Part shown: piece by piece, positions 571-13,229 of the stretch
Position numbering within the stretch: the first letter of the stretch is position 1
Layout: each line of letters opens with the position of its first letter
Position numbers and translations under genes: made by a program
Assembly: GCA_029784825.1 (NCBI GenBank)
Contig: JAFMAU010000026.1
Coordinates: 1-25,526 of the forward strand
Direction of reading: 5' to 3'
Length of the DNA stretch: 25,526 bases
From: Nitrososphaerota archaeon
GTDB lineage: Archaea; Thermoproteota; Nitrososphaeria; Nitrososphaerales; UBA183
Notes under the pieces: model-generated
The model's database searches: none
What the model was told of the DNA's origin: nothing
What the model saw: the letters and a program-made list of their open reading frames with translations, nothing else

Positions 571-590
571 GGGCCAGACGGGAATCGAAC
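571..590 (-). other. tRNA 3'-end-like fragment (possible att remnant)
   Basis: Read on the minus strand, these 20 bases have the layout of tRNA positions 53-72: G53, T-loop TTCGATT, T-stem 3' strand CCCGT, acceptor 3' strand CTGGCCC. The sequence upstream (CCAA) does not form the matching T-stem, and no intact tRNA can be drawn. A 3' tRNA fragment that breaks off inside the T-loop is what a tyrosine-integrase attachment site leaves. It touches the start of repeat R1. This is an inference from layout only; no integrase is in the window. Confidence 0.35.
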
Positions 591-736
591 TTGGATTGCT
601 GGCGAAGCAGGATACGCGACGAGAGAAATGGGGGAAAGGTATTCGTTACACTTCTGTAACGGGCCCCACCGGGCCCGGGATGAATTAGCTCAGAATGGAC
701 TCCGTCTGGCTGGAATAGCTGATTTCTGGCGATTCC
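581..736 (+). repeat. Dispersed tRNA-like repeat R1
   Basis: This is the longest copy. The part from about 661 (GGGCCCCACCGGGCCCGGG) through TTAGCTCAGAATGGACTCC and GGAATAGCTGATTTC aligns with R2, R4 and R5. The left part carries extra sequence absent from the other copies. Its ends are complementary: GGAATCG at 581-587 and CGATTCC at 730-736. It lies between the 3' end of the surface-protein gene at 755 and the unidentified gene at the left edge. Confidence 0.6.
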
Positions 737-754
737 AAGATGCGGCTCTGCGGC

Positions 755-1396
755 CTAGCCGGTATTCACATTCAGGTAGGTTCCTGTCTGGTTGGCGAAC
801 CACTGTAGTTCCAGTCGGTTGTTGACCTCTGCAACGGACGGCGAGGGAAGGGACCCCGATGCAGGGGCAGGCGGCGCCCATCTGAATATTACGCTCTGGT
901 TCCCAAAGCTCCTGCTGGAGACATTGAGGACGAGGCTGAACGCACTCTGGAGCGTTGGTGTTCCTCCATACCCAGTGCCGTTGTATTCCATGTAGAAGGT
1001 GAAGTTGCCAACGGTGAACTGCTTGGGCATGGTGCGATAGAGGAGTATGGTGCCCGCGGGGAAGCTGGCCGGAGGTGCGTGCGGACAGTATTCTGATTGT
1101 GATGCGCCTGGAGCCAATCCTCCGCACAGCTGTTGAATTATGCTCGTCTGCGCGGCAATGTCGTTGTTGTCACTGGCGAGTGAGGCATTGAGAGCTGATA
1201 TTTGATTCGACATAGAGGTGTAGTTGTAGGCAAGAGTTACGGCAAGCGCAGTTATGATGAAGAGGAGTATCACAGTGGATGCCCCAATCGCCCTTCTCGA
1301 AGCCGTGACGTTACTGACATTCATTTCCGGAACCGCAATGCCTGCGAGGGATTTACGCCTACTTACCAGAACGGCCCAGCCTATCCCAGGCCCCAT
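755..1396 (-). CDS. Membrane-anchored surface protein with pilin-like N-terminus
   Basis: The 213-residue protein has a short N-terminal stretch, then a basic segment SRRAIGAS followed by a hydrophobic helix (about residues 41-60, STVILLFIITALAVTLAY) and a Ser/Thr/Asn-rich exterior with several N-glycosylation sequons (NAS, NVS, NQS, NQT). A basic-then-hydrophobic N-terminus is seen in archaeal type IV pilin-like and other anchored proteins, so it probably sits outside the membrane. No enzymatic motif is visible. An internal ATG at 1324 (MNVSNV) gives a shorter N-terminus nearer the usual distance to the helix and could be the true start. The gene follows a 50-residue ORF by 8 nt. Near its 5' end it shares 17 of 18 bases with the other surface-protein gene (5758-7029). 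The specific function is unknown. Confidence 0.6.
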   Translation of the reverse strand: MGPGIGWAVLVSRRKSLAGIAVPEMNVSNVTASRRAIGASTVILLFIITALAVTLAYNYTSMSNQISALNASLASDNNDIAAQTSIIQQLCGGLAPGASQSEYCPHAPPASFPAGTILLYRTMPKQFTVGNFTFYMEYNGTGYGGTPTLQSAFSLVLNVSSRSFGNQSVIFRWAPPAPASGSLPSPSVAEVNNRLELQWFANQTGTYLNVNTG

Positions 1397-1404
1397 TCCA
1401 GCAA

Positions 1405-1557
1405 CTACTTGCCAAGCCCGACCAGTCCTTTCTCTGATACCAGCCTGTCCTCCACATCCTTGAGGCGATTCAAGGCGATCAGGCGGTCCTCATACTCGTC
1501 CAGATTCACAGGACACTTGACGATGACGTAGCTGTTAACAGTTTCTCGAGTAGTCAT
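1405..1557 (-). CDS. Small 50-residue hypothetical protein
   Basis: An ATG at 1557 opens a 50-codon frame ending in TAG at 1405. The product begins MTTRETVNSYVIVKCP and continues with a charged amphipathic helix (DEYEDRLIALNRLKDVEDRL). It has no TM segment, and composition is that of a small soluble coiled-coil or helical protein. It ends 8 nt before the start of the surface-protein gene on the same strand, so the two are probably co-transcribed. No family is recognised. It could be a small regulator or the antitoxin-like partner of a neighbour, but nothing in the sequence shows that. Confidence 0.45.
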   Translation of the reverse strand: MTTRETVNSYVIVKCPVNLDEYEDRLIALNRLKDVEDRLVSEKGLVGLGK

Positions 1558-1711
1558 GCGAGAGCCGGGCAGGTGTCTGAGGGCCCATACATGTGCCGGA
1601 GTCCCGGCCAGGATGCCTCCTCCTGATCTGGGCTAAAGCCTGCCTATTTCTTCAAGGAACCGACGGTGGCGCTTCAGGATGTCGTCTAGGTTCGCCGACC
1701 AAACATCCTCG

Positions 1712-2119
1712 TCAATGGTGCCGCTTCGGCCCTTTCCCGCCATTTCCCTTCAGCCAAGAGGCCACGTCCGCTTTCTTATGTGTTCCGCTGCGGATGCCTT
1801 TGACTACCTCAACATCGTATGTGTTGGCAGCCTGGAAGCCGTTCGATTCCAGGAAATTGGCTGCGGCAGCGTAGGCGGTCCTTCTGTTCCCGCTTTCGAA
1901 GGGGTGTCCCTTGACGATGCCGATCAACAGGACGGCTGCCTTCTCGTATATGTCGCCAGCCTCGGACTCGACTTCTTCCAGGACTTTCGCTATCTTCCCC
2001 CGGCCGACTTCGCCCATTAGTATTCCGTGTCGGTCGGCTTTGTGAACCCGGATCGTCTGGAGGATGCGTCGATTTGTCTCGACTATTTCATCCAGGGTCG
2101 GGTAAGAGATCTCTGACAC
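1712..2119 (-). CDS. doc: Doc/Fic-family toxin, probably frameshifted near its C-terminus
   Basis: The 135-residue product carries the Fic/Doc catalytic motif as HPFESGNRR (residues 72-80; family pattern HxFx..[GA]N.R). This family transfers phosphate or AMP to target proteins; Doc phosphorylates EF-Tu. The GTG start at 2119 has TTCTTAAGA about 28 nt upstream, fitting a leaderless transcript. The last ten residues (GGKGPKRHH) look wrong. Shifting by one nucleotide near 1735-1745 opens a frame that continues to a TAG at 1633 and encodes a plausible helical tail (DDILKRHRRFLEEIGRL). Either the gene is broken or an extra base sits in the GGGAAAGGG tract. No Phd-type antitoxin is next to it. Repeat R2 starts about 145 nt upstream. 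Confidence 0.72.
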   Translation of the reverse strand: MSEISYPTLDEIVETNRRILQTIRVHKADRHGILMGEVGRGKIAKVLEEVESEAGDIYEKAAVLLIGIVKGHPFESGNRRTAYAAAANFLESNGFQAANTYDVEVVKGIRSGTHKKADVASWLKGNGGKGPKRHH

Positions 2120-2264
2120 TTCTTGAGGTTGCGGGGCCGGGTCTTAAGAAGAATCGCCGTGATGCCGAAATAGTCATGGACAGGGATATCTCCTTCAACG
2201 ATGAACACTCTTTAGCGCGGTCGAGTCTCCTCTTGGCTGATCCGCATGAGCGCCAGGCCAGGTT

Positions 2265-2404
2265 GAGATTCGAACCCATAATGGGTCGGGGCCCCTCCGG
2301 GCCCGGGTTGTAATAGCTCAGAATGGACTCCGTTTGGATGTCAGAGTATGATTCAAGCTATTTGTAGAAAGGCGTTCTCGGGCCATTTGACACCACAAGC
2401 AAGG
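2265..2404 (+). repeat. Dispersed tRNA-like repeat R2
   Basis: It starts GAGATTCGAACCCATAATGGG, whose minus strand is the B-box-like GGGTTCGAATCTC. A GC-rich dyad (GGGGCCCC, GGGCCCGGG) follows, then TTGTAATAGCTCAGAATGG, which fits the archaeal A-box/D-arm pattern on the plus strand. The tail GTTCTCGGG...CCACAAGCAA matches the tail of R5. It separates the Doc gene from the CLC gene. Confidence 0.75.
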
Positions 2405-2497
2405 TTTAGTATGGTTTCTGCACGGTTCGAACTAGACCATCTCGGCAAGAAGAACGCGGGATTATCCATCGGCCAAGGCACGTTTAAGACACCGCTG

Positions 2498-2503
2498 GGA
2501 GGT
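2498..2503 (+). promoter_or_regulatory. Shine-Dalgarno site for the CLC gene
   Basis: GGAGGT lies 7 nt before an ATG at 2511. It is the clearest Shine-Dalgarno sequence I saw and decides the start of the CLC gene, even though that ATG frame is interrupted after 14 codons. A TTTAAG box precedes it at about 2483. Confidence 0.6.
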
Positions 2504-2510
2504 CAGCGAA

Positions 2511-4347
2511 ATGTCTCAAGAGGCGACAGAGAGGACTGTCAAACACCCAATCTAGAATCAACAGGATTATCCAAAGCAACTACCTTGCAAAATGGACGGT
2601 AATCGGCCTCTTCATTGGGGTGATCGCAGGGATTGGCGCTATCATCTTCTACGTGCTGATCCAATTCGTGACGAACTCCATGCTAGGCGGGATTACCGGA
2701 TTCTACCCGCCCAACCCGGCTGGAGAGTCAGCCTCAATTCTTGGCACAAGTCCGAATTTCTGGCTCATCCCGTTGTCGACCGCCATCGGCGGCCTGGCCA
2801 CAGGGATCATCGTCTACAGGTTCGCCCCTGAGGCAGAGGGTCACGGAACGGACGAGGCGATTGCAGCCTTCCATCGCAAGGACGGCAAGATAAGGCGGAG
2901 GATCCCCATCGTCAAGGCGATTGCATCAGCGTTCACCATTGGCTCTGGGGGAAGCGGAGGGAGAGAGGGGCCGACGGCGCAGATAGCGGCTGGATTCGGT
3001 TCGTTCGTGGGGGATACTCTGAAGCTGGCCGTGAAGGACAGGAGGATCGCTGTCGCCGTCGGGATAGGAGCCGGAATCGGTTCGATATTCAAGTCCCCGT
3101 TCGGCGGCGCAATGCTCAGCGGGGAGATACTGTACAGCGGGGGAGACTTCGAGACCGAGGCGCTGATACCGGCGTTCATCGCCTCGCCAATAGGATATGT
3201 AATCTTCGCCTCCTTCACGGGGTTCACGCCGATCTTCGGGAACTCGGTTTCGTATTCATTCACTCATCCGGCCAACCTGCTCTTCTATGCACTGTTGGGC
3301 CTTGCCTGCGGAATCGTTGGACGGGCGTACACCATGACTTTCTATTCGGTAAGGCGTCTCTTCGCAGCTCTGAAACTTCCAAGGTATGCCAAGCCTGTCA
3401 TTGGCCTGACGATATCGGGCGTAATCGGGGTATTCTTCCCTGAGGTCCTGGGTCTCGGTTACGGCTTCCTCCAATATCTGATGAACGGCCAGACCAGCCT
3501 GGTCGGGATTAACTTCGTCTCAGCACCTATCCTTGTCGTGCTCCTGCTGGTTGTCCTCTTCAAAATCATAGCCACTTCATTCACCGTTGGCTCGGGTGGG
3601 AGCGCCGGAGTGTTCGCCCCTTCATTGGTCATCGGCGGATTCGTCGGTGCGTCATTCTGGGTCGCGCTGAACACAGCGCTTCCCGGAGTGATTCCCATCC
3701 CGGCGCCGTTGGTAATAGTCGGAATGGTGGCCTTGTTCGGCGGGGTAGGTCGGGTACCCATTGCAGTGATTCTGATGGTGAGCGAGATGACCGGAACCCT
3801 CTCTCTTCTGGCCCCTTCAATGGTGGCCGTTGTAGTCTCTTACTTTGTGGTGGGGCCGAAATACACCATATATCGGAGCCAGGTTTCGAAACGATCCGAC
3901 TCTCCGGCCCACAGGGGAGAATACAACGTCCCACTGCTGACGAAGTTATTCGTCTCGGACGCGATGAACCATGCCGTGGCGACGTTCACTCCCGATGACG
4001 TGGTGTCGGCTGCCTACCAAGCCATGCTTGACAAGGGCTTCCGAGGAATCCCCATCGTTCAAGATGAAAAGACCGTCGGGATCGTGACCATGAGCGACCT
4101 TCTACGGGTTCCCCGCGAGCAGATGGCCTCGACGCCAATCAAATCGGTTATGACCACCAACCTCTTGGTTGTCTACCCCGACGAGTCGCTACTGGTTGCC
4201 CTTGACAGGATGACAAACCATGGCGTCGGCCGCCTCCCGGTCGTTTCGAGGGAGACGGGCAGGTTGTCTGGGATCATCACCCGCACTGATGTGATCAAGG
4301 CCTACAATAGGGCGGTCGAACTGCTCTCCAGGTCTGAGTCCACTTGA
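2511..4347 (+). CDS. CLC-family chloride channel/antiporter with two CBS domains; N-terminal frameshift
   Basis: An integral membrane CLC protein moving chloride (or similar anions) through the cell membrane. The selectivity motifs are visible: GREGP with the gating glutamate, and GVFAP in the second half. The first GSGIP-type motif appears as GHGTDEA, as in some CBS-bearing prokaryotic CLCs. A glutamate in SGEILYSGG lies where the proton glutamate of exchangers sits, so a Cl-/H+ antiporter is possible. Two CBS domains (LFVSDAMNHAV... and IKSVMTTNLLV...) occupy the last ~130 residues and should bind adenine nucleotides. The intact frame can begin only at GTG 2620, which is inside the first helix. 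A good Shine-Dalgarno and ATG at 2511 give MSQEATERTVK, then stop; dropping one base near 2541 joins this to TQSRINRIIQSNYLAKWTV and the rest. The gene is probably frameshifted or mis-sequenced at its 5' end. Confidence 0.9.
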
Positions 4348-4403
4348 GCCGAGCCCGTTAATCACTGTGTGCAAATTGTCGAACGGCTCACCACCGAAGC
4401 GTT

Positions 4404-4688
4404 TTACCGGTCTTTGGGAGTAGGACTAGCTAGAATTTTCCAAATGACGCGTTTCCGAGGCGCATTCACTGGTGGTCCTTGTGAACCACTCCTCAGAAGC
4501 GTGATCATGACCATAATGACAAGCCCAGCGAAGAAAACCAAGGCACCAATAACTAGAGTTAGCTGGGCACTAAACTCCCCCTGTCCATACCCCCATGCCG
4601 ATATCCCGACGCCTATGAACATAAGAACAACCCCTGCTAGCAGTAGGCGAAGACTCAAGGGTCGTACCCTCAGCGACCCAGGGTCCAA
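4404..4688 (-). CDS. Small two-TM membrane protein
   Basis: The 94-residue product has two hydrophobic helices (about residues 13-33, LLLAGVVLMFIGVGISAWGY, and 42-63, LTLVIGALVFFAGLVIMVMI) joined by a short GQGEF loop, with a basic C-terminal tail (APRKRVIWKIL). The start chosen is TTG 4688; a TTTTTAGG box lies just upstream. It is convergent with the CLC gene. No family is recognised, and function cannot be inferred beyond membrane location. Confidence 0.5.
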   Translation of the reverse strand: MDPGSLRVRPLSLRLLLAGVVLMFIGVGISAWGYGQGEFSAQLTLVIGALVFFAGLVIMVMITLLRSGSQGPPVNAPRKRVIWKILASPTPKDR

Positions 4689-4830
4689 CCAACCCTAAAA
4701 AGTCCCCCCCGGGGTAGAGGAATACTTTTGAACGACGCCCCTGATGGAGAGTTCAACCTGTGCTTCCTTGGCTGAATTGGGGTGCCACGGTCAGTGACGT
4801 CCATTAACCAACATGTGCATGGTGTCGAAC

Positions 4831-4864
4831 GGATTCGGTCCTATTATGGGTCCGGACCCCACCA
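4831..4864 (+). repeat. Partial tRNA-like repeat R3
   Basis: Positions 4843-4864 are identical over 22 bases to R4 (5586-5607), including the palindromic GGGTCCGGACCC core. Upstream, GGATTCGGTCCT lines up without gaps with AGATTCGAACCC of R4. The right half of the element (TAGCTCAG and beyond) is missing or unrecognisable. It lies about 20 nt beyond the end of the first VapC gene, so R3 and R4 bracket the VapBC pair. Confidence 0.65.
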
Positions 4865-4883
4865 CTAATGACCTGATTGCAAC

Positions 4884-5279
4884 TTACACAATTATCGCTT
4901 CGGACAGCCCCTCGAAATGCTTGTCCCCTGTAACCACCTTGGCGGAGGCAATCCTGGCTGTTGCCAAGATAATCGAGTCAGCCATCCCCCAATTCTTGAC
5001 TGTCGACTTTCGTTCGTGGTTCAACTCTCCCGCAAGCAGCGCAATCTGCCGATCGACGCTCGCAACCGAGGTCTTAGACGTCATGAAGGCGACGTCTTCC
5101 TCGAATGTTCGCCACTTTTCCCTCAGATACTTTTCCTTCAACTCCGCGAGGCTCACAACCGAGGTGGCTGCCGTTTCGCCTTCGACGAACCGGCGAGCCC
5201 TCCTTCCCGATTCAGTTCCTCGGAAATACTCGATCCAGGCATAGGAGTCTATCACGTACTCATAACTCATGAAGCTCAC
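4884..5279 (-). CDS. vapC: VapC-type PIN-domain toxin (first VapBC module)
   Basis: A 131-residue PIN-domain endoribonuclease, the toxin half of a type II toxin-antitoxin pair. The acidic Mg2+ site is present: D11 (YVIDSYAWIEYF), E46 (SLAELKEKY), D101 (GMADSIILATAR) and D119 (VVTGDKHF). PIN toxins cut tRNA or rRNA; the target cannot be read from sequence. It overlaps the antitoxin gene by 20 nt if the GTG at 5279 is used, or 11 nt with the ATG at 5270 (MSYEYVIDS), which is the more VapC-like N-terminus. It appears intact and is autoregulated from the operator ahead of VapB. Confidence 0.9.
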   Translation of the reverse strand: MSFMSYEYVIDSYAWIEYFRGTESGRRARRFVEGETAATSVVSLAELKEKYLREKWRTFEEDVAFMTSKTSVASVDRQIALLAGELNHERKSTVKNWGMADSIILATARIASAKVVTGDKHFEGLSEAIIV

Positions 5280-5460
5280 TTTCCTCCTTTGGACTGAATG
5301 GAGTCATCTTCGGATGCGCGCCGAACATGGTTTCCGGGATGTTCTCGGCCTTGTTGATGAGATGCCGTAGAGTCTCGTCCATGCTCCTTGCGTGGTACTT
5401 CTTCTTGAGCTCCTCCAAGACCTTCGCTGTGTTTCTCTTCACTTCCACCGTGGTGGACAT
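5260..5460 (-). CDS. vapB: VapB-type antitoxin (first module)
   Basis: The 66-residue protein begins MSTTVEVKRNTAKVLEELKKKYHARSM, a short beta-strand followed by helices as in ribbon-helix-helix antitoxins. The C-terminal part (MFGAHPKMTPFSPKEESELHEL) is the type of extended tail that wraps a PIN toxin. It is translated just ahead of, and overlapping, the VapC gene. The ATG at 5460 is supported by a TTAATA box about 27 nt upstream and by an operator-like dyad that reaches into the start codon, so the message is probably leaderless. It should neutralise VapC and repress its own operon. Confidence 0.8.
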   Translation of the reverse strand: MSTTVEVKRNTAKVLEELKKKYHARSMDETLRHLINKAENIPETMFGAHPKMTPFSPKEESELHEL

Positions 5461-5486
5461 AGCTATGGACTATGGGCCATAGCTAT
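5459..5486 (-). promoter_or_regulatory. VapBC operator/promoter dyad
   Basis: A perfect 10-bp inverted repeat, ATAGCTATGG (5459-5468) and CCATAGCTAT (5477-5486), with a smaller nested dyad TATGGGCCATA (5471-5481). It covers the stretch from the TTAATA promoter box to the vapB start codon. This is where an autorepressing antitoxin complex would bind. The function is inferred from position and symmetry. Confidence 0.65.
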
Positions 5487-5573
5487 TAAGGGTTGCTACC
5501 AATTTGCTCGAGCCGTGGGTGCTCCCCGAAAGTGGGATCGACAATGAACTTGAGAAAAGGGCAGACTGGATTG

Positions 5574-5672
5574 AGATTCGAACCCATTATGGGTCCGGAC
5601 CCCACCAGGCCTGTGTTGTAATAGCTCAGAATGGACTCCGATTGACTAGGATAGCTTGATTCAGGCGAATCT
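5574..5672 (+). repeat. Dispersed tRNA-like repeat R4
   Basis: A compact 99-nt copy. From left to right: AGATTCGAACCC (B-box-like on the minus strand), the palindrome GGGTCCGGACCC, TTGTAATAGCTCAGAATGG (A-box-like on the plus strand), ACTCCGATTGACTAGGATAGC and TTGATTCAGGCGAATCT. The outer ends pair (AGATTCG at 5574-5580 with CGAATCT at 5666-5672). It lies between vapB and the 3' end of the second surface-protein gene. Confidence 0.75.
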
Positions 5673-5757
5673 TCAGTGCGTCCATGTTCGGATAAGTGAA
5701 GTGGCGGGACGGCCTTGTGCTGGTCCTAATCTGAAAGAGCATCGGACTGGTTGTTTG

Positions 5758-7029
5758 CTAGGCCACGCTAAAGTAGAGCAACACTAAATTGCCCCACTCA
5801 TCTCCGGTCATTACCGTATACGTCCCTGAGCCGAACTCATGGAAAGTCATTGCCGGAAATCCGGGAGACGGGATCGCGTACCCCGTCCAGTAACCATCGA
5901 AGGTAATTGTCGTGTTCATCTGGACCTTGAAGGTCGGCGCAGATGGAGTCGAAATGAGGACGGCCAAAGCCGCGTCGCTCTGTGGCGCGAACTCATAGTA
6001 TTGTATGGTAGGTGCCACTGGGCAACCTCCTGCTACCGGTTTGGAGGGGGCGAGGTAGGTTCCAGTTGAGATGTTTCGGGCAGAATAGTATCCCTGAAAG
6101 ACTGCTACGCCGAAGGGATACTCCCAGCTTGCGCATCCAGCACTCACCGAGAGTCCTTTCACGGGCCAGCGATTTGTGGAGTTGACAGGATTCAACGCCG
6201 ACAGCGTGTTGGACAGGCTCGCGTTCACGGCTACATACTCGCCTGGCTGGAGCTCCGTCGAGTTCAGCGCGAGGCTCAAGCGTAGGCCCTGCGGGGTGAC
6301 GGCTGAAGCCGTGGCTCCAGATACTTCGAAGTACTCCAGCTCCTGCTGGCCCCAGGCGTCTTCGATCAAGACGGTGTAGATGCCCGGAGAGAATACCTGG
6401 AATGCGTAGTTCGTACGTCCGTCCGACAGTTGGCCGTCGGGGGTCCAGTAACCGCTGAGGACATCGGTGTAGTTGACCGGATGTGTGAAATTCCCGATGA
6501 TAGAGGAGTCGTGAACGAGATTGCTGTCGGGGAGGAAGGTCAGGGTGCTATTGTAGGAGCGAAAACATGGAGGTATAATCGATACGTTATGAAGCAATAG
6601 AGCCGTTCCACTTGAAAGAGTCGAGTAGGTGTAATCGCCCATGTAGACTTTGTATGATGTCGGGAGCGTTCCGCAGGGAGCGCCGACGAGTAGGATCCTG
6701 AACTGAACCGGCAACGGGTTGAACACCTCGGCTCCGATTGTTATGCTCTGACCCTCGGCGATTGCGTGAGGAGAGACTATGGGGATCAGCTCGAGGTTCG
6801 GATTCGCGACCAAGGTGGTAGTGTGAGTCGAGACATAGCTCGGAGCGTGCTCTGCTGCGTTACCAACCAGATACCCCACTCCTGCGCCGACGAGAATGCC
6901 AACCACGGCCACCACAGCGACGACCTCCCCGCGCATTGAAACCGCAGAGTTGACGGCGTTTCGGCTCATAAGACTAGTTACCAGAACGGCACAGCTGCCT
7001 TGATAGGGCGGGCGGGCTACTCCAATCAC
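5758..7029 (-). CDS. Anchored extracellular protein with two GYWT...Y(T/E)V-type repeats
   Basis: The 423-residue protein has one N-terminal TM helix (about residues 35-57, VVAVVAVVGILVGAGVGYLVG) and a long exterior rich in Asn sequons and Ser/Thr. Two related segments are visible: GYWTPDGQL...SPGIYTVLIEDAWGQQ (middle) and GYWTGYAI...GSGTYTVMTGDEWGN at the C-terminus. Both end in a beta-strand (YFEV, YFSV), which points to duplicated beta-sandwich domains. I recall similar G-T-Y-T-V...D-E-W-G segments from thaumarchaeal surface proteins, without having checked. GTG 7029 starts 1 nt after the DUF2283 stop; ATG 6969 (MSRNAV) is an alternative with a more typical signal-anchor distance. It is the last gene of a probable vapB-vapC-DUF2283-surface protein operon. 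Confidence 0.75.
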   Translation of the reverse strand: MIGVARPPYQGSCAVLVTSLMSRNAVNSAVSMRGEVVAVVAVVGILVGAGVGYLVGNAAEHAPSYVSTHTTTLVANPNLELIPIVSPHAIAEGQSITIGAEVFNPLPVQFRILLVGAPCGTLPTSYKVYMGDYTYSTLSSGTALLLHNVSIIPPCFRSYNSTLTFLPDSNLVHDSSIIGNFTHPVNYTDVLSGYWTPDGQLSDGRTNYAFQVFSPGIYTVLIEDAWGQQELEYFEVSGATASAVTPQGLRLSLALNSTELQPGEYVAVNASLSNTLSALNPVNSTNRWPVKGLSVSAGCASWEYPFGVAVFQGYYSARNISTGTYLAPSKPVAGGCPVAPTIQYYEFAPQSDAALAVLISTPSAPTFKVQMNTTITFDGYWTGYAIPSPGFPAMTFHEFGSGTYTVMTGDEWGNLVLLYFSVA

Positions 7030-7030
7030 T

Positions 7031-7231
7031 CTAGTGCTTGGAGCGCACCAGCTGCGCCTTGATCTCCTTCCTAACGGTGGGCGGAAGGAGGAGTTCGATC
7101 CCCAGGACCTTCTTCTTGGAGTCGAGGTCCACTACCATGTTGTCGGCCAGGGGCTCGCTTGAAGATACCCTGCCATTCTTCAGCCTCAGGTAAAGCGCGT
7201 CGGCGTCCTTGTCAAACTCGAGTGAAGCCAA
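7031..7231 (-). CDS. DUF2283 family protein
   Basis: The 66-residue product starts MASLEFDKDADALYLRLKNGRV, then NMVVDLDSKKKVLGIELL, the typical DUF2283 pattern of a strand carrying D-x-D-ALY-L-L followed by V-D-D-G-IE-L. The biochemical role of DUF2283 is not established; members often sit near toxin-antitoxin genes. Here it starts 17 nt after vapC of the second module and ends next to the start of the surface-protein gene, so it is probably co-transcribed with both. Confidence 0.85.
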   Translation of the reverse strand: MASLEFDKDADALYLRLKNGRVSSSEPLADNMVVDLDSKKKVLGIELLLPPTVRKEIKAQLVRSKH

Positions 7232-7248
7232 ACCTCTTTGCCCCTTCC

Positions 7249-7626
7249 CTAGAAGAGGTGCAGTCCGTCCTGTGTGAACTGTTCGAAGTGCCTGGAGTCG
7301 AGAGTCGAGAGCCTGGCCGACCTGTTGATGGCCACCGCCGCTATCATGGTGTCGATTCTGCGGACTGGCTTGCCCCTTTTCTCCGCCGTCAACTCGAGGC
7401 GTGACGATACTTCTGCGTCCTCCTTCTCGTATGGGAGCACCCGCAACCTTCCGATCTTCTCTACGGACTTGGTGTATTTCTTCAGGCCATAGAGGAGCTC
7501 GTGCATGTTGATGGAGGTTGTGCCTACGTCCTCACCGGCCTCGCTAAGCGCCTTTAGCAGGCGGTCCCCCTCGGAAGACTCTTTGTCGAGAATTTCGATT
7601 AAAACGTTCGTGTCGAGTAGGATCAT
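7249..7626 (-). CDS. vapC: VapC-type PIN-domain toxin (second VapBC module)
   Basis: A 125-residue PIN-domain nuclease with the full acidic set: D5 (MILLDTNVLIEIL), E43 (NMHELLYGL), D92 (RIDTMIAAVAI) and D110 (LSTLDSRHF). It resembles the archaeal VapC group that is paired with COG1753-type antitoxins. The ATG overlaps the antitoxin stop by 4 nt, giving coupled translation. It differs clearly from the VapC at 4884-5279, so the two modules are not a recent duplication. Confidence 0.93.
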   Translation of the reverse strand: MILLDTNVLIEILDKESSEGDRLLKALSEAGEDVGTTSINMHELLYGLKKYTKSVEKIGRLRVLPYEKEDAEVSSRLELTAEKRGKPVRRIDTMIAAVAINRSARLSTLDSRHFEQFTQDGLHLF

Positions 7627-7835
7627 GCCCTCTTCTCTTCCCTGCGGGCTGAAATCTCGGACAGCAGCTTTCGCTTGTCGGCGAAGGTCAGTTTCCCACG
7701 CATCCTCTTCAACACCTCGACCGAACTCCCCTGCTCGACAAGCCTTACGAAAAGGTCACTGAAGCTCTCGTCCGGGTCTTTCACCGCGACTAGTTTCTCG
7801 TAGACATCGTCTTTTATCGTCAGTGTCTTGGTCAT
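7623..7835 (-). CDS. vapB: VapB-type antitoxin, COG1753/UPF0330-like (second module)
   Basis: From the ATG at 7835 the 70-residue product begins MTKTLTIKDDVYEKLVAVKD and continues SFSDLFVRLVEQ, the standard pattern of the COG1753 antitoxins (strand, then helices). The tail (RKLLSEISARREEKRA) is highly charged. An upstream in-frame start at 7898 would add residues with no family match and would read through the promoter, so it is rejected. TTTATATG about 30 nt upstream fits the archaeal TATA box. It binds and inhibits the VapC it overlaps by 4 nt. Confidence 0.85.
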   Translation of the reverse strand: MTKTLTIKDDVYEKLVAVKDPDESFSDLFVRLVEQGSSVEVLKRMRGKLTFADKRKLLSEISARREEKRA

Positions 7836-7844
7836 GAAGCCTAT

Positions 7845-7868
7845 GTGTTTAAACATACATATAAACAT
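7845..7868 (-). promoter_or_regulatory. Promoter/operator of the second VapBC operon
   Basis: An AT-rich island with TTTATATG (minus strand) as TATA box. A perfect 10-bp palindrome TGTTTAAACA at 7846-7855 is followed by a second TAAACAT at 7862-7868. Position and symmetry fit an autoregulatory antitoxin site. R5 starts 16 nt further upstream. Confidence 0.55.
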
Positions 7869-7883
7869 GGCATGCATCATTCC

Positions 7884-8022
7884 GAGATTCGAACCCATAT
7901 AGGTTCGGACCCCACCGGGCCTGGGTTGTAAGAGCTCAGAGTAGACTCTGATTGGCTATCATAGCATGATTAGAGCCGTTTACAGCTGGTGGTTCTCGGG
8001 ACGCTCGAACCCACAGGCAAAG
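7884..8022 (+). repeat. Dispersed tRNA-like repeat R5
   Basis: It starts GAGATTCGAACCCATATAGG and contains GGACCCCACCGGGCCTGGG and TTGTAAGAGCTCAGAGTAGACTCTG, then ATAGCATGATTAGAGCC. The tail GTTCTCGGGACGC...CCACAGGCAAAG matches R2. In this copy AGAG...CTCT flanks the A-box-like segment and can pair. It ends 3 nt before the stop codon of the truncated sorting-signal gene. Confidence 0.75.
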
Positions 8023-8024
8023 AC

Positions 8025-8340
8025 TCAGAGGCCCCGTCGCCTCATTAGTAAGTATGAGAACACGACAGCAGCAATGGAAACCCCCACTGGAAGAAGCTGA
8101 AGTGGGAACTCGGGGATTCCCCCACCCCCCTGTGATGTCAAGGATGAAGTGGTGGAGCTGGCACTAGTTGTTGCACCGCTCGCCGTCGAAACGGACGTTG
8201 TTGTGGAGATGCCCGCCGTCTGCAGGGCGTAGGTCGCCGACATTGTCAGATTCGAGTATAGTTCGACCGTCCTTGCCGGGTTTGCCTGGCGCAGGGGGAC
8301 CCATACTGTGGATTCCGCCTCGAACAAGCGCCCCAGAAGC
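8025..8340 (-). pseudogene. C-terminal remnant of a cell-surface protein with a PEF-CTERM-like sorting signal
   Basis: The minus-strand frame ending at 8025 encodes a Ser/Thr-rich linker (ISTTTSVSTASGATTSASST), a Gly run, IPEFP, a hydrophobic helix (LLPVGVSIAAVVFSYLL) and MRRRGL. This is the tripartite layout of archaeal C-terminal anchoring/sorting signals such as PEF-CTERM. Upstream, ESTVWVPLRQANPARTVELYSN still looks like a real exterior domain. Beyond about 8340 the same frame is merely the complement of the ACT-V4R gene, so the N-terminal part of the surface protein is missing. I read it as a gene fragment cut off by a rearrangement at roughly 8340-8380. Confidence 0.6.
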
Positions 8341-8418
8341 GTTCCTGACGGCCGGCAAACGGCCCCCCTCCCCGAGGGTGCTAACGCTTTTAGCGAAGCG
8401 ATGCCGCTCGCAAACCGC

Positions 8419-9201
8419 ATGTCCCAGGGTCCGAGGGGGATCCCGATATTCATCTTCGCGCCTTCGAGGAACGTGTTCAGGATAACCTCTGTCCACAAGA
8501 ACGTGCCCGGGTCTCTATTGGAGCTGCTCACGGAGATTTCGAAGTCAAAGCTGAACATATTGAGCGTGACCACGTCCGCCATTCCAGATGCCGAGTCGGC
8601 AACGCTGACCCTTGTCGTGGAGGCTTCGCCCGACGTGACCTTGCGTGATGTAAAGTCAAAGCTCAGGCCCTCGGCCCTGGTGCCGAGCATAGAAGTGGAG
8701 CCGGCGCACAGTGGGCTGGTGGTGGAAGACGGCCACTTCCCCATCATCATGAGCGGGGGAGAAAGACTGCTGCTGATGAGAGCGGACCTCTTCGTGCCGA
8801 TGACTGCATCGCTGAAGAAGACGTTCGGGACAGGAGGCGACGTGATACTCTATCAAATGGGGTATTCCTACGGAGAGACCGCGATGCAGAAGTTCATCGC
8901 TCTGATGGGGAGAGACTATGTTCAGGAGAACTTCAGAGAACTCGGAAAGGTCTATACCGCCCTGGGGTGGTGTAAGCCTACGTTGACCAAGCTGAGCCCA
9001 GAGCAGGGAGAGGTCGAGGTTGAGATGGAGGACAGCTTCGAGTGCTCAGGTCAGAGGTCGATGGTGCGGGGAAGCCAGTTTCTGCGGGGCCACATGACCG
9101 CTGTGATGGATGTCGCGTGGAGAAAGGAGTTCTCAAGCGAGGAGACAGAGTGCATCTCAAGGGGGGACGGTCGATGCAAGTTCGAATTCAGGGCGAAGTA
9201 G
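8419..9201 (+). CDS. ACT-like plus V4R domain protein
   Basis: The 260-residue product has an N-terminal ACT-like fold (ITSVHKNVPGSLLELLTEIS...ILSVTTSAIPDAESATLTLVVE, about residues 15-75), a linker, then a V4R (4-vinyl reductase) domain over the last ~140 residues, ending in the typical SEETECISRGDGRCKFEF with two cysteines. ACT domains usually bind small ligands such as amino acids; V4R domains are small-molecule-binding modules, often regulatory. No DNA-binding domain is visible, so a sensor or partner of a regulator is the best guess. I chose ATG 8419 because CTTTTAG at 8388 is about 29 nt upstream (leaderless). ATG 8401 or 8308 would extend into sequence unlike the family. Confidence 0.75.
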   Translation: MSQGPRGIPIFIFAPSRNVFRITSVHKNVPGSLLELLTEISKSKLNILSVTTSAIPDAESATLTLVVEASPDVTLRDVKSKLRPSALVPSIEVEPAHSGLVVEDGHFPIIMSGGERLLLMRADLFVPMTASLKKTFGTGGDVILYQMGYSYGETAMQKFIALMGRDYVQENFRELGKVYTALGWCKPTLTKLSPEQGEVEVEMEDSFECSGQRSMVRGSQFLRGHMTAVMDVAWRKEFSSEETECISRGDGRCKFEFRAK

Positions 9202-9305
9202 AGTCGACCAGGGGACTGCGGGCCGGGCGCGAGGCTCCTAGTCGCGATCGCTGCCCCGCAGAGATCCGACGCACACGCCGGAGATCTGCATGCCCCTCGA
9301 GAATC

Positions 9306-9321
9306 TTCTCAAGCTTGAGAA
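9306..9321. promoter_or_regulatory. Perfect 16-bp palindrome ahead of the universal stress gene
   Basis: TTCTCAAGCTTGAGAA is fully self-complementary. It sits about 105 nt after the ACT-V4R stop and 45 nt before the universal stress protein ATG, just upstream of the probable TATA box (ACTTAAAC, 9333-9340). It could be a regulator site for the stress gene or a terminator hairpin for the gene before it; there is no T-run right after it, which favours an operator. Confidence 0.5.
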
Positions 9322-9366
9322 TCGGCTCGTGAACTTAAACGGAGCTCGTCGGCGGCGGGAAAGGAA

Positions 9367-9801
9367 ATGGCCCGAAGACCGTTAGAGCACATCTTGGTAG
9401 CATACGACGGTTCCGAGAATGCACTGAGGGCCTGCGAGGTCGCGTCGGTCCTTGCAAGCCGCTTCGGTTCCAAGGTCAGCCTGTTGTATGTCATCCCGAC
9501 CCTGAGCATCTACACCGCACCCATGGCCGACCAATACTACGCGTTCCAGCGGGGAGCGGCGGAGTCGGCGGTAAGAGAGTGCCAGGGGGTCTTCGACCGC
9601 CACGGCGTGACGGCTACCGTCGATATCGTCCCGGCTCGTTGGTCCATCGTGGAGACGATTTTGAGCTATGCACTTGACAGGGGCGCGAGCCTCATAGTCG
9701 TCGGGGCCAGGGGAACGGGAGGCTTCGAGAAGTTGCTCGTCGGGGGCGTCGCCAGCGGCGTCGTCGCCCACGCCCACTGCCCGGTGCTCGTCGTCAAGTG
9801 A
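9367..9801 (+). CDS. Universal stress protein (UspA family)
   Basis: A 144-residue cytoplasmic protein of the ATP-binding Usp type. The N-terminus HILVAYDGSENALRACEVA and the C-terminal GARGTGGFEKLLVGGVASGVVAHAHCPVLVVK fit the family; the latter is the nucleotide-binding loop (G-x2-G-x9-G-S/T pattern, with some variation). Length is normal. TTAAAC lies about 29 nt before the ATG, fitting leaderless transcription, and the 16-bp palindrome sits just upstream. It precedes a metal-transport ATPase on the same strand, which suggests a stress-linked setting, though an 88-nt gap with its own TTAATT box separates them. The exact role in this organism is unknown. Confidence 0.93.
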   Translation: MARRPLEHILVAYDGSENALRACEVASVLASRFGSKVSLLYVIPTLSIYTAPMADQYYAFQRGAAESAVRECQGVFDRHGVTATVDIVPARWSIVETILSYALDRGASLIVVGARGTGGFEKLLVGGVASGVVAHAHCPVLVVK

Positions 9802-9889
9802 GCTTCTGCACGGGCCGGCCCCAACCGCGTTTTCATTTGTGGGAAGCGTATCACCGCCTTAATTCTCCGACCAGCGGCGGACTCTGAAA

Positions 9890-11758
9890 ATGAGCCGCGT
9901 CGGGCGAAGGACTGGGAGCAGGCAGGCACGGCCGCTGGTCAGGGCCTATCCCCTCCCGTTCATCGCACTGGCCGGGATGGGGACAGGTGTTGCCTTCGCA
10001 CTATTTGGAGATGGCGACGCCGCCAGGGCGGTCTGGTACGGAACCCTCGTAGTAGGGGGCCTGCCTGTCGTCGCGAAGACTGTCCGGGGGGCGCTGAAGC
10101 GCAAGTTCGCAGCTGACCTGATTGCGATGCTTGCGATAGTCACAGCGATCTTGACCGACGAAGCCTTCGCGGGAGTCGTTATAGTCCTGATGCAGACAGG
10201 AGGGGAGGCGATAGACGACTACGGGTTCAGGAGGGCCTCCTCGTCGCTCGAAGAGCTCATTGCGAGGGCACCGAGGCTCGCGAGGCGCAGGCGGAGCGAC
10301 GCCCTTGAAGAAGTGAGAGTGGAGGAGGTGAAGATCGGGGACGCCTTGGTCGTCAGACCGGGGGACCTCGTTCCTGTGGACGGCTCGGTCGCATCCGAGC
10401 CCGCGGAAGTGGACGAGTCAGCCCTGACTGGAGAGCCCCTTCCAAAATCAAAGTTCCTTGGAGACAAGCTGCTGAGCGGAAGCGTGAATGTGGGACCTCT
10501 GTTCGAGATGATCGCATCGAAGGAGAGCGGGAAGAGCCAGTACTCCAGGATTGTCGAGCTCGTGAAGGAGGCCCAAGGTCAGAAGCCGCCCATACAGAGA
10601 CTTGCGGACAGGTATGCGGTGTGGTTCACCCCGATTACGGTGGCGGTGGCGCTGGCCAGCCTTGCCCTGACCCGGAGTTTCGATGCGTTCCTCGCAGTCC
10701 TGGTCGTGGCGACCCCGTGCCCGCTCATACTTGCGACCCCTCTGGCTGTGATCAGCGGAGTCAACAGGGCGGCGAAAGAAGGAATCATCGTGAAGAGCGG
10801 CGCGGCGATTGAGCAGATCGGAAGAGGAAGGGTGGTCATATTCGACAAGACCGGTACTCTCACCTTCGGAACGCCTGCAATCGAGAGGGTCGTACCGATG
10901 GGATGGGAGGCAGACGCCATCCTGAAGTTGGCGGCGAGCGTAGAGCAGTACTCCACTCACCCCGTCGCCGTCTCGGTCGCCAAGGCAGGCAGGGAGAGGT
11001 TCGGCGGGCTCCTCCCGGCGAGGGATTTCGCAGAGGCACCAGGCCGAGGGGTCAGGGCGAAGGTCGACGGCGCGAGTGTGGTCCTTGGGTCACAGACTTA
11101 CGTGGAGCAGGCAATCGGCGGGAGGTTCGATGCGGGCTCCGGAGATGTGCTGGAAGAGGCCCAGGCAAAGGGGAAGCTCGTGTCGTTCGTCGCTGTCGAC
11201 GGAAGACCTGCAGGGATCATCGTATTCAGCGACCAGCTCAGGCCGGGCGTTCCCGCGATGCTCCTGAAACTCAGGGAACTGGGCGTAGAGCAGGCGGTGA
11301 TGCTGACAGGAGACTGCGCCGCGAACGCGGAGACCGTCGCGAAGGAGGCGGGGATCGAGAAGGCAGAGGCGAACCTCTTGCCGCAGCAGAAGGTGGATGA
11401 GGTGAGGAAGCTGACCGAAGAGTTCGGCTCATCGATAATGGTTGGGGATGGGATCAACGACGCACCGGCCCTGGTGGCCGCAACGGTGGGAGTGGCGATG
11501 GGCGCCCACGGAACCGGGATTTCAGCCGAGGCGGCGGACGTCGTCCTGCTCGTCGACGACGTGACGAAGGTCGGTGACGGGATCGCCATAGGCCAGAGGA
11601 TGCTCCACATCGCGAAACAGAGCATCTTCTTCGGAATGGGCGGGAGCTTCGTCCTGATGGTAGTGGCGTCGTTCGGGTATATTCAGCCTGCGATAGGCGC
11701 CGTCATGCAGGAGGCCTTGGACATCACGGTGATCCTCAACGCCTTGAGGGTAAGGTAG
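9890..11758 (+). CDS. P1B-type heavy-metal ATPase with TPCP motif, no N-terminal metal-binding domain
   Basis: A 622-residue ATP-driven metal pump of the cell membrane. Landmarks: TGEP at 180-183 (actuator domain), TPCP at 275-278 in the ion-binding helix, DKTGT with the phosphorylated D319, the STHP signature of P1B ATPases (H357-P358), MLTGD, and GDGIND at 519-524. There is no N-terminal CxxC or His-rich domain and no C-terminal hemerythrin domain. A TPC core rather than CPC, CPH or SPC recalls the P1B-5 (Nia-type) group linked to nickel/iron. Substrate is therefore uncertain but copper (CPC) is unlikely. CCTTAATT about 28 nt before the ATG supports the start. It is a possible export system, downstream of a stress protein. 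Confidence 0.9.
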   Translation: MSRVGRRTGSRQARPLVRAYPLPFIALAGMGTGVAFALFGDGDAARAVWYGTLVVGGLPVVAKTVRGALKRKFAADLIAMLAIVTAILTDEAFAGVVIVLMQTGGEAIDDYGFRRASSSLEELIARAPRLARRRRSDALEEVRVEEVKIGDALVVRPGDLVPVDGSVASEPAEVDESALTGEPLPKSKFLGDKLLSGSVNVGPLFEMIASKESGKSQYSRIVELVKEAQGQKPPIQRLADRYAVWFTPITVAVALASLALTRSFDAFLAVLVVATPCPLILATPLAVISGVNRAAKEGIIVKSGAAIEQIGRGRVVIFDKTGTLTFGTPAIERVVPMGWEADAILKLAASVEQYSTHPVAVSVAKAGRERFGGLLPARDFAEAPGRGVRAKVDGASVVLGSQTYVEQAIGGRFDAGSGDVLEEAQAKGKLVSFVAVDGRPAGIIVFSDQLRPGVPAMLLKLRELGVEQAVMLTGDCAANAETVAKEAGIEKAEANLLPQQKVDEVRKLTEEFGSSIMVGDGINDAPALVAATVGVAMGAHGTGISAEAADVVLLVDDVTKVGDGIAIGQRMLHIAKQSIFFGMGGSFVLMVVASFGYIQPAIGAVMQEALDITVILNALRVR

Positions 11759-11848
11759 CCACGCTCCACCCCAGGCCGCGGCCCCAGGGAGGTTCCGATC
11801 CGACCGGCACCGCTCCTTTGCCCACCCCCTTTCTGAGCGGCCCATCAC

Positions 11849-11857
11849 CCTTAAAGG
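11849..11857 (+). promoter_or_regulatory. Leaderless promoter box of the aminotransferase gene
   Basis: CCTTAAAGG lies about 27 nt before the GTG at 11880, the usual archaeal TATA-to-start distance when the transcript begins at the start codon. It supports the GTG as the real start. CCCTTAAAGGG is also symmetric. Confidence 0.5.
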
Positions 11858-11879
11858 GCCAGAGTCGGAGTTCCGAGTC

Positions 11880-13229
11880 GTGCAAGCGGCGCTGTTCGAT
11901 GAGAGCGAGGTGCTGAAACACTTCGGGGCCAGGACGAGGCGCTCGGCTGAGCTCTTTCGGAAGGCGACCCAGGTCACCCCGGGAGGGGTCATGGCCGGGA
12001 TCAAGTTCTTCGAGCCATACCCGGTGTTCATGAACCGGGCGGATGGGTCCCACGCCTGGGACGTCGACGGCAACGACTACGTAGACTATCTGATGAGCTA
12101 TGGGGCGATCGTGCTTGGGCACGGCTCCCAGGCCCAGCGACGGGCGACGGAGGCCGTGTGGAAGTCGATCGGCACTTCCGTCATGGGAACGCCGACGGAG
12201 GTGGAGGTCGAGTACGGGGCCATCCTCAGGGACATCTACCACCCAGGGGGCCTGATCAGGTTCACCAACTCGGGGCTGGAGGCGACCTTGCTCGCGGTCA
12301 GGCTAGCGAGAGCCTTCACAGGGAGGCGGAAGGTGGCGAAGTTCGAGGGGCACTACCACGGCGCGGTGGACCGGCTCCTTTTCAGCTACACGCCGCCGGC
12401 CAGCAGGGCGGGGCCGGACGAGTCCCCCCTCCCGATCGGAGACAGCGCAGAGATAGACGGAGAGATGCTGCGGGACTCTCTGGTACTCCCGTTCAACGAC
12501 CTAGATTCGACCGAGAGGCTGCTGACGAGCCATTCGAGAGAGTTGGCGTGCGTCATAATGGAACCGTTCGAAGAAGGGGTGATTGCGGCTGAGGGCAGGT
12601 TCATGGCTGGTCTGAGGGGCATCACCAAGGACCTGAAGATACCGCTGATCTACGACGAAGTGAAGACAGGGCTCAGGGTGAGGATAGGAGGGGCATCGGA
12701 GTTCTACTCTCTGACCCCCGACCTCGCTTGCCTCGGGAAGATAATCGGCGGGGGCATGCCCATAGGGGCGGTGGTCGGCGACTCCAGGATCATGGACCTG
12801 TTGGACCCGCGCGGAGAGAAGCCTTCGAGGGTCTTCCATTCCGGGACATTCAACGGCAATCCCCTTTCACTGTCGGTCGGAAGGGCGACGGTCGAAGAGA
12901 TATCTCGGAGCGGGAGGTTCGACACCCTCCGCAGGCGCACGGACGACCTGAAGAGGGCGTTCTCCGGCGAACTCTCCCAACGCCACATCCCCCATCAGAT
13001 TCTCGGAGAAGGAGGGATGTTCAACCTGTTCTTGACCGACAGGAAGGTCAGGAACTACCGCGACGCCAGGAGGTCAGACCTTCGCACCAGGAGGCTGCTC
13101 GACCTCGAGCTGATCTCGCGGGGCGTCTACCTGAAGCCGGAGAACAGGTTCTGCCTCTCCCTTGCCCACACTGCGGACGACGTGAGCCTGACCCGGGAAA
13201 GGTTTGCATCGTCCTTGGACTCCGCCTAG
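11880..13229 (+). CDS. Class III (HemL-like) PLP aminotransferase
   Basis: A 449-residue cytoplasmic PLP enzyme of fold type I, closest in appearance to glutamate-1-semialdehyde aminomutase. Visible features: TPGGVMAGIKFFEPYPVF and ADGSHAWDVDGNDYVDY at the N-terminus, KFEGHYHGAVD, the cofactor aspartate in IYDEVKTG, and the Schiff-base lysine K287 in LGKIIGGGMPIGA. It differs from true HemL: NSGLEA instead of NSGTEA, and GTFNGNP rather than the GTLSGNP gating loop. I therefore do not assign it to tetrapyrrole synthesis. It may be an aminotransferase or aminomutase of unknown substrate. The next gene, a PurD-like ATP-grasp enzyme about 105 nt downstream on the same strand, may act in the same pathway. 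Confidence 0.88.
   Translation: MQAALFDESEVLKHFGARTRRSAELFRKATQVTPGGVMAGIKFFEPYPVFMNRADGSHAWDVDGNDYVDYLMSYGAIVLGHGSQAQRRATEAVWKSIGTSVMGTPTEVEVEYGAILRDIYHPGGLIRFTNSGLEATLLAVRLARAFTGRRKVAKFEGHYHGAVDRLLFSYTPPASRAGPDESPLPIGDSAEIDGEMLRDSLVLPFNDLDSTERLLTSHSRELACVIMEPFEEGVIAAEGRFMAGLRGITKDLKIPLIYDEVKTGLRVRIGGASEFYSLTPDLACLGKIIGGGMPIGAVVGDSRIMDLLDPRGEKPSRVFHSGTFNGNPLSLSVGRATVEEISRSGRFDTLRRRTDDLKRAFSGELSQRHIPHQILGEGGMFNLFLTDRKVRNYRDARRSDLRTRRLLDLELISRGVYLKPENRFCLSLAHTADDVSLTRERFASSLDSA

Follow-up and report, generated by a model that had tools for sequence, protein, structure and literature searches.

Repeats resembling tRNA-gene attachment sites delimit gene cassettes in a Nitrososphaerota archaeon

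The Tycheposons of Prochlorococcus, elements of a different host, are targeted to tRNA genes and some of them consist of cargo only; we know of no shared arm at several tRNA targets among them. Cis-mobilizable elements (CIMEs) have no integration genes but keep their attachment (att) sites, and may be stacked next to further elements in tandem, as at the 3' end of a tRNA-Lys gene (PMC5704250). The ssrA islands of Dehalococcoides are arranged in tandem downstream of one RNA gene and bounded by a 20-bp direct repeat that copies the 3' end of that gene; 16 of them have an integration module and 15 do not (PMC3146451). Thaumarchaeal integrated elements occupy tRNA 3' ends, also in tandem, with att sites of a median 17 bp; the cryptic ones have a median size of 17 kb and the integrase as their most conserved protein (PMC6563490), and integrated elements devoid of integrase have been attributed to loss (PMC8371274). 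Integrons and clusters of attC sites lacking integrases (CALINs), archaeal ones included, are attC-based arrays of small cassettes with one site per cassette, often with no integrase nearby (PMC9668308). Here we analyse, as a single window, 25,526 nucleotides from a Nitrososphaerota archaeon (contig JAFMAU010000026.1), in which a first-pass annotation had pointed out a family of repeats, R1 to R5, lying between accessory genes. Our comparisons make it very probable that these repeats are attachment sites for a system of site-specific recombination, which inserts exchangeable cassettes at tRNA 3' ends and stacks them there, the target in this window presumably being a tRNA-Arg gene to the left of position 1.

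The repeats and their tRNA-derived core

The repeats are real and above chance. TAGCTCAGAATGGACTCCG occurs three times exactly in the window and not once in 100 shuffles, GATTCGAACCCATWATGGGTC occurs four times at no more than 3 mismatches and never in shuffles, and a 76-nt repeat family has four members of 68-100% identity. Alignment of the repeats gave a left GATTCGAACCCATTATGGGTCCGGA, a middle CCCCACCGGGCCCG and a right AATAGCTCAGAATGGACTCCG...GATTC, a complete site having a 14-bp core between a left arm and a ~52-bp right arm. Of the five copies initially proposed, four are complete (R1, R2, R4 and R5) and R3 is merely a left half with part of the core and no right arm; all of them lie on the + strand, which agrees with the single orientation originally described, and a profile of the right arm recognised four arms in the window, every one within 571-8022. 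The core matches the final ~14 nt of tRNA-Arg exactly or almost exactly. The element had been called tRNA-like as a whole, which holds for the core and the sequence immediately to its left; TAGCTCAGAATGG is not tRNA-derived, its place in the intact copies seen being past the 3' end of the tRNA. In the window itself, ARAGORN found no tRNA and Rfam no family at its gathering threshold. The left part of R1 (571-660) is unlike that of the other copies, and window positions 636-723 are 80% identical to positions 12800-12712 of L132, from genome G199 (L numbers denote fetched loci of relatives and G numbers genomes); because it differs from the others yet partly recurs in G199, the R1 left arm was taken as a second subtype. 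By eye, window 571-599 read on the minus strand gives GTTCGATTCCCGTCTGGCCCG, one base off the tRNA-Lys 3' end of relatives, and a similar GGAATCGAACCCGATT is found upstream of the R1-like site of L132.

An exact 28-nt pattern searched against genome contigs returned no match, and diverged copies were then found by BLAST and profile searches of relatives. With R4 as the query, matches were obtained in 10 of 20 relatives' genomes, and in several of these the match starts within an intact tRNA-Arg gene, showing that core and right arm correspond to the 3' end of the tRNA and the sequence directly downstream of it. Intact tRNA-Arg genes ending in this way are of the CCG, TCG and GCG types, and the same right arm also stands behind tRNA-Asn, Gln, Lys, Ile, Ala and Gly genes (the last two at a single locus each); one tRNA called as tRNA-Ser(gct) has a tRNA-Ile tail. 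At the same loci there are, in many cases, additional arms behind only the last ~14 bases of that tRNA, delimiting cassettes.

The collection comprised 106 distinct arms (109 profile rows before overlapping matches were merged). Twenty of them adjoin a tRNA called by ARAGORN, and 20 of the 79 tRNA genes in the fetched loci bear an arm. Among the other 86, 84 had enough upstream sequence to be compared with 51 tRNA tails taken from the fetched loci, and 71 of these 84 were preceded by at least 12 of the 14 nt of a tRNA tail, vs 23 of 2000 random positions. As the first model contained the core, the test was repeated on arms from genomes reached only by an arm-only model, with a positive result for 20 of 21. 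Each of the 22 arms located up to 80 bp from a tRNA gene is on the 3' side of that gene, and 20 of them share the orientation of the tRNA. Of 38 pairs of adjacent arms, 34 have the same orientation (L107 and L109, which are near-identical, both counted); arms on the same strand are spaced at a median of 2,243 bp (33 gaps, L109 dropped). Direct repeats of a tRNA 3' end, as in tRNA islands, were found at the cassette borders. Matches of the R1 model confined to its positions ~3-48 look like ordinary tRNA ends and were left out of the counts. The oppositely oriented arms, at L123:2160-2199, L145:9827-9874 and L154:9012-9049, with one pair 56 bp apart at a contig end, could be assembly joins, inversions or cases of palindromic ambiguity.

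The consensus of the 109 aligned arms is an imperfect palindrome of 42.5 bits. RNAalifold found no consensus pairs in 40 right arms analysed alone, the core not included, and for this reason we regard the right arm as a putative protein-binding site in double-stranded DNA. Under strict filters, the arm-only model matched 33 of the 400 class genomes, a count that includes the training genomes; 22 of the 33 had at least two matches, up to a maximum of 11 per genome, and the remaining 11 a single one, some possibly by chance. Since the arm is palindromic, some copies in this class search were counted on both strands. A control in the phylum of a Micrarchaeota genome gave no match in 295 genomes, an empty answer that shows little alone. 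A viral origin was left unsupported by a weak test, an exact 19-nt pattern being present in no viral contig.

Cassettes and the probable exchange of their cargo

Short cassettes were defined as gaps of 400-5000 bp between same-strand arms (L109 dropped), which yielded 27 cassettes with 45 open reading frames (ORFs). The first-pass annotation had reasoned that mobility would be supported by copies flanking different gene groups and by empty sites in relatives. The 27 short cassettes bear out the former. As for the latter, no wholly empty site was seen, and we found two cases of a shared site at which one relative lacks a single cassette, the breakpoints falling in the core or next to it. In the first one, L064 and L068, whose flanks at the tRNA-Arg(CCG) site are 81-83% identical, have two cassettes in common, 87% and 89% identical, between which L064 carries an extra 965 bp (11,137-12,100, arm included) that is absent in L068; the L068 junction (12,559-12,590) corresponds to a left half-site, and the sequences switch partners beside CCCCAC. 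In the second one, L067 and L068 share the same tRNA-Arg(CCG) site and flanks that are both ~91.5% identical, but ~250 bp at and past the L068 tRNA site are a 77% match to the distal site of L067 and the DNA downstream of it, not to the tRNA site of L067. On the basis of this match, the 2.5-kb cassette L067:16222-18694 is absent in L068. A small cassette with a gene of 94-98 amino acids (aa) was also seen at L064:10689-11136, L001:7556-7904 and L068:12559-13014; as it follows a tRNA-type core (clear in L064 and L001) with no common arm, a second class of cassette may exist.

Comparison of the cargo showed related genes in arrays at different tRNA targets. The pair of VapC and its presumed antitoxin of the window is the sole cargo of an 875-bp Lys-type cassette in G199 (L134:10925-11501), with 77% and 68% amino-acid identity, and a tRNA-Asn cassette in L131 carries nothing but a relative of the window P-type ATPase (76%). 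A ribbon-helix-helix and ParE-like pair occurs in Arg arrays (L063, L066 and L067) and in Lys-type arrays (L103, L104, L134 and L140). The Lys-type array L103 holds a 44% relative of the cyclase of Arg array L063, together with a 48% relative of the beta-helix protein of Asn-type array L094. Relatives of the 423-aa protein of the R4-R5 unit lie in Gln (L115), Asn (L112) and Arg (L066) arrays, at 28-36%, and those of the window Fic protein in L155, L127 and L152, at 29-45%. DNA matches placed CLC relatives near tRNA-Arg arms (L070 and L133), near a weak arm (L118) and near tRNA-Gln (L063).

The cassettes of relatives, the breakpoints in or beside the core and the location at tRNA 3' ends support the repeated site-specific insertion or cassette exchange put forward at first reading, and a mechanism can be proposed. 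Each site would consist of a target-specific left arm, a tRNA-end core and the ~52-bp imperfect-palindrome right arm common to several tRNA genes. A free cassette with one site, probably a circular intermediate, would recombine with a tRNA end or with a resident site, and exchange in or beside the core would rebuild the tRNA 3' end and keep the next site usable. Repeated insertion would build a tandem, same-direction array of short cassettes carrying toxin-antitoxin pairs, surface proteins, transporters and single enzymes, from which recombination between sites would remove or swap a cassette. Since almost no cassette has a recombinase, the enzyme would come in trans. A more ambitious version, which we advance only tentatively, would be an integron-like exchange in a clade of soil Thaumarchaeota, with tyrosine integrases acting in trans, a universal palindromic arm at seven tRNA kinds, and cassettes moving between arrays and species; tRNA genes would then serve as a distributed storage of swappable genes.

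Table 1. Putative attachment sites, cargo units and distal segment of the window
Feature	Positions	Strand	Content
R1 attachment site	571..740	+	left arm (second subtype) 571-663, core CCCCACCGGGCCCG 664-677, right arm 678-740
R2 attachment site	2267..2369	+	left arm 2267-2291, core CCCCTCCGGGCCCG 2292-2305, right arm 2306-2369
R3 left half	4832..4864	+	left arm and CCCCACCA; right arm absent
R4 attachment site	5575..5677	+	left arm 5575-5599, core CCCCACCAGGCCTG 5600-5613, right arm 5614-5677
R5 attachment site	7886..7986	+	left arm 7886-7909, core CCCCACCGGGCCTG 7910-7923, right arm 7924-7986
R1-R2 cargo	755..2119	-	protein with no Pfam match 755-1396; Fic/Doc protein 1712-2119
R2-R3 cargo	2620..4688		CLC channel with CBS domains 2620-4347 (+, Pfam); small ORF 4404-4688 (-)
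R3-R4 cargo	4884..5460	-	VapC (PIN, Pfam) and presumed antitoxin with no Pfam match
R4-R5 cargo	5758..7898	-	protein with no Pfam match 5758-7029; DUF2283 7031-7231; VapC-type PIN 7249-7626; VapB-type 7623 to ~7835
Segment distal to R5 (probable further variable segment)	7987..11842		V4R-like 8308-9201; Usp 9367-9801; P-type ATPase 9890-11758

Among the genes listed in Table 1, the two proteins initially described as surface proteins (755-1396 and 5758-7029) have no Pfam match, and the longest ORF of the VapB-type gene in the R4-R5 unit extends to 7898, into R5. The repeats had been said to fall only in an accessory part ending at 8022. All four arms are indeed within it, but the variable part extends further, since the window is colinear with its closest relative, L001, only from ~11,843 onward, and the stretch distal to R5 is probably a further variable segment. 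A decayed distal site was sought by eye at 11.74-11.90 kb of the window and none was recognised. Between 8025 and ~8300, on the minus strand, an ORF end with GGGGIPEFP and a membrane anchor resembles, by eye, that of the 1023-aa beta-helix protein from cassette L094, and may be the tail of a truncated surface protein.

Regarding the host, an ATP-grasp gene in the conserved part of the window has its closest relatives in archaeal metagenome-assembled genomes (MAGs), many of them named Thaumarchaeota or Nitrososphaerota. The closest one is in L001, 90% identical in the best segment, and that of L045 (Gagatemarchaeum) is more distant (73%). Further relatives stand in records labelled Planctomycetia (L034, 55%) or Micrarchaeota (L013-L016, L019 and L020; 73-75%), which points to mislabelled bins or gene transfer.

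Candidate recombinases and competing explanations

Divergent tyrosine integrases of the L140/L152/L163 type, whose genes begin beside the same kinds of tRNA ends, are the best candidates for the proposed trans-acting enzyme. In L140, a 493-aa integrase frame directly adjoins a Lys-type site, overlapping the edge of one short cassette by 32 nt and reading away from it; L104 retains, 116 bp away from a Lys-type arm, a C-terminal integrase remnant of 118 aa that has 75% identity to the L140 protein; and in L152 an integrase lies beside a tRNA-Ile tail, with two Ile-type sites 6.7 and 7.5 kb further. The structural model of the L140 protein (mean predicted local distance difference test, pLDDT, 84.8; predicted template modelling score, pTM, 0.65) matches the folds of archaeal XerA, integron integrase 2a3v and Cre, and the candidate has both the tyrosine-recombinase fold and the catalytic residues. 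Members of the L140 family mostly have Y-x-x-R instead of the usual H-x-x-R, and a long C-terminal part after the invariant tyrosine. Relatives of the L140 protein are present in 20 of 30 genomes. At 12 of 20 further places taken from the list of these relatives (L169, L174, L176, L177, L179, L180, L181, L182, L183, L185, L186 and L187), a tRNA called by ARAGORN or a 14/14 tRNA tail lies within 150 bp of the 5' end of the integrase frame, in L185 on the strand opposite to it.

The Pfam model PF00589 scored L163 below its cut-off and did not match L140 or L152; by genome, it found nothing in G001 and G018, nothing in 11 of 18, and a match below cut-off in G199. Tyrosine recombinases missed or under-scored by it are L163:1052-2302, L140:250-1677 and L152:16225-17520. 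The statement that some genomes have no integrase was consequently dropped, as the divergent tyrosine recombinase of G199 (L163) falls below the Pfam cut-off and the L140 family has no Pfam match. With the integron integrase model TIGR02249, L163 and L094 scored 17.3 and 27.5 bits, the cut-off being 265. A serine recombinase was rejected as common agent, PF00239 being present in 8 of 13 genomes and in none of G127, G205, G001, G026 and G019. The L094 integrase was likewise rejected as the cognate enzyme, because no confident arm lies near its relatives in G005 and G011 (94% and 88%).

Several observations weigh against the interpretation of the repeats as attachment sites of an exchange system. 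Its support comes from comparisons of assemblies that are mostly MAGs, and the window's own tRNA-Arg is not within the window. Thirteen of the 84 arms have no clear tRNA tail, 4 of the 38 adjacent pairs are opposite in orientation, and the 98-aa-type cassette of L064 and L001 sits behind a core with no recognised arm. In the comparison of L067 with L068, the unit beyond the site may be related rather than identical, given that its 77% identity is below the 91.5% of the flanks. The window and the 45 ORFs of the 27 short cassettes (0/27) yielded no integrase, so that the integrase gene usual within a tRNA island is missing here. An integrase ORF or remnant is present in only 5 of 68 arm-bearing loci (L094, L104, L132, L140 and L152), a confident arm in only 1 of 20 PF00589 neighbourhoods (L094) and an arm match, a weak one, in only 1 of 20 L140-type neighbourhoods (L173). 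With so few integrase neighbourhoods carrying an arm, the link between integrase and arm is thin, and the integrase-tRNA distance (12 of 20 places) stands without a random control.

These points leave room for another history, in which the cassettes are relics of full, integrase-bearing tRNA islands that decayed to cis-mobilizable remnants, with passive accretion and deletion and no trans system. Accretion is known to yield tandem islands with and without integrase (PMC5704250, PMC3146451), and integrase remnants do lie beside such sites or tRNA ends in L104 (118 aa), L132 (127 aa) and L030 (131 aa), although remnants of the kind that CIME-type decay from an integrase-bearing element would leave were seen only in these three loci. 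We consider this history possible but doubtful: 27 short cassettes with 45 ORFs contain no integrase at all, the arm is conserved across targets while 19 of the 20 fetched L140-type integrase loci have no arm match, and decay alone does not predict the same cargo at different tRNA arrays.

Three further explanations have far less to commend them. Duplicated and decaying tRNA genes, spread with their 3' flanks by homologous recombination and with no site-specific step, would account for a core that is a tRNA 3' end; this is very unlikely, since the left arms of internal copies are not tRNA bodies, the same arm stands behind different tRNA genes, and the presence/absence breakpoints are in or beside the core. 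It is even harder to believe that the right arm acts in RNA or transcription, as a tRNA trailer, a terminator or a leader, and stands behind tRNA genes by coincidence, as might be suggested by its position within 15 nt behind several intact tRNA genes and by its imperfectly palindromic consensus. The arm is found equally behind short tRNA fragments between cassettes and at only 20 of 79 tRNA genes, it yielded no consensus structure, and no Rfam family was matched in the window. A true integron, in which the site would fold single-stranded as attC does, could be invoked on the basis of tandem cassettes with a palindromic element and of 2a3v being among the best fold matches of the L140 model. 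We give it equally little credence, as right arms alone have no consensus fold, exchange appears to take place in or beside the tRNA-derived core, outside the palindrome, and the short cassettes hold no integrase of any kind.

Relation to known systems

If the attachment-site interpretation is correct, a little-studied archaeal group would have a modular gene-exchange system, probably missed by scans for integron sites or by the Pfam integrase model. It would explain the hypervariable stretches beside tRNA genes, predict where toxin-antitoxin and surface genes are traded, and provide exact DNA sites to seek in reads. The common arm would also offer a handle for finding the recombinase and for asking if a single family of enzymes acts at many targets.

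Searched by term, the Gagatemarchaeaceae genome paper (PMC10640624) gave no mention of integrase, mobile, cassette, transposase or genomic island. In the literature covered (titles and beginnings of abstracts, subscription papers and preprints lying outside), no described arm shared by several tRNA targets was recognised. The cassettes resemble CIMEs in that the short ones have kept att sites and have no integration genes, and differ from them in being small, in having one arm motif across tRNA targets and in sharing cargo between targets. The Dehalococcoides ssrA islands have a single target and a serine recombinase, whereas here there are several tRNA targets and the candidates are of tyrosine type. 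The thaumarchaeal integrated elements belong to the same phylum and also use tRNA 3' ends; neither a shared arm nor a cassette array was found described in the portions of that report that were covered (PMC6563490). Unlike integrons and CALINs, the sites analysed here have a tRNA end as core and a right arm in which no consensus fold was found. The first-pass annotation knew of no described element with this layout. Tandem tRNA and tmRNA (transfer-messenger RNA) islands, some of them integrase-less, and integrase-less relics are in fact already known; what appears to be new, judging from the descriptions we found, is a tRNA-anchored cassette array with multiple targets, a common arm and cargo that crosses between those targets.

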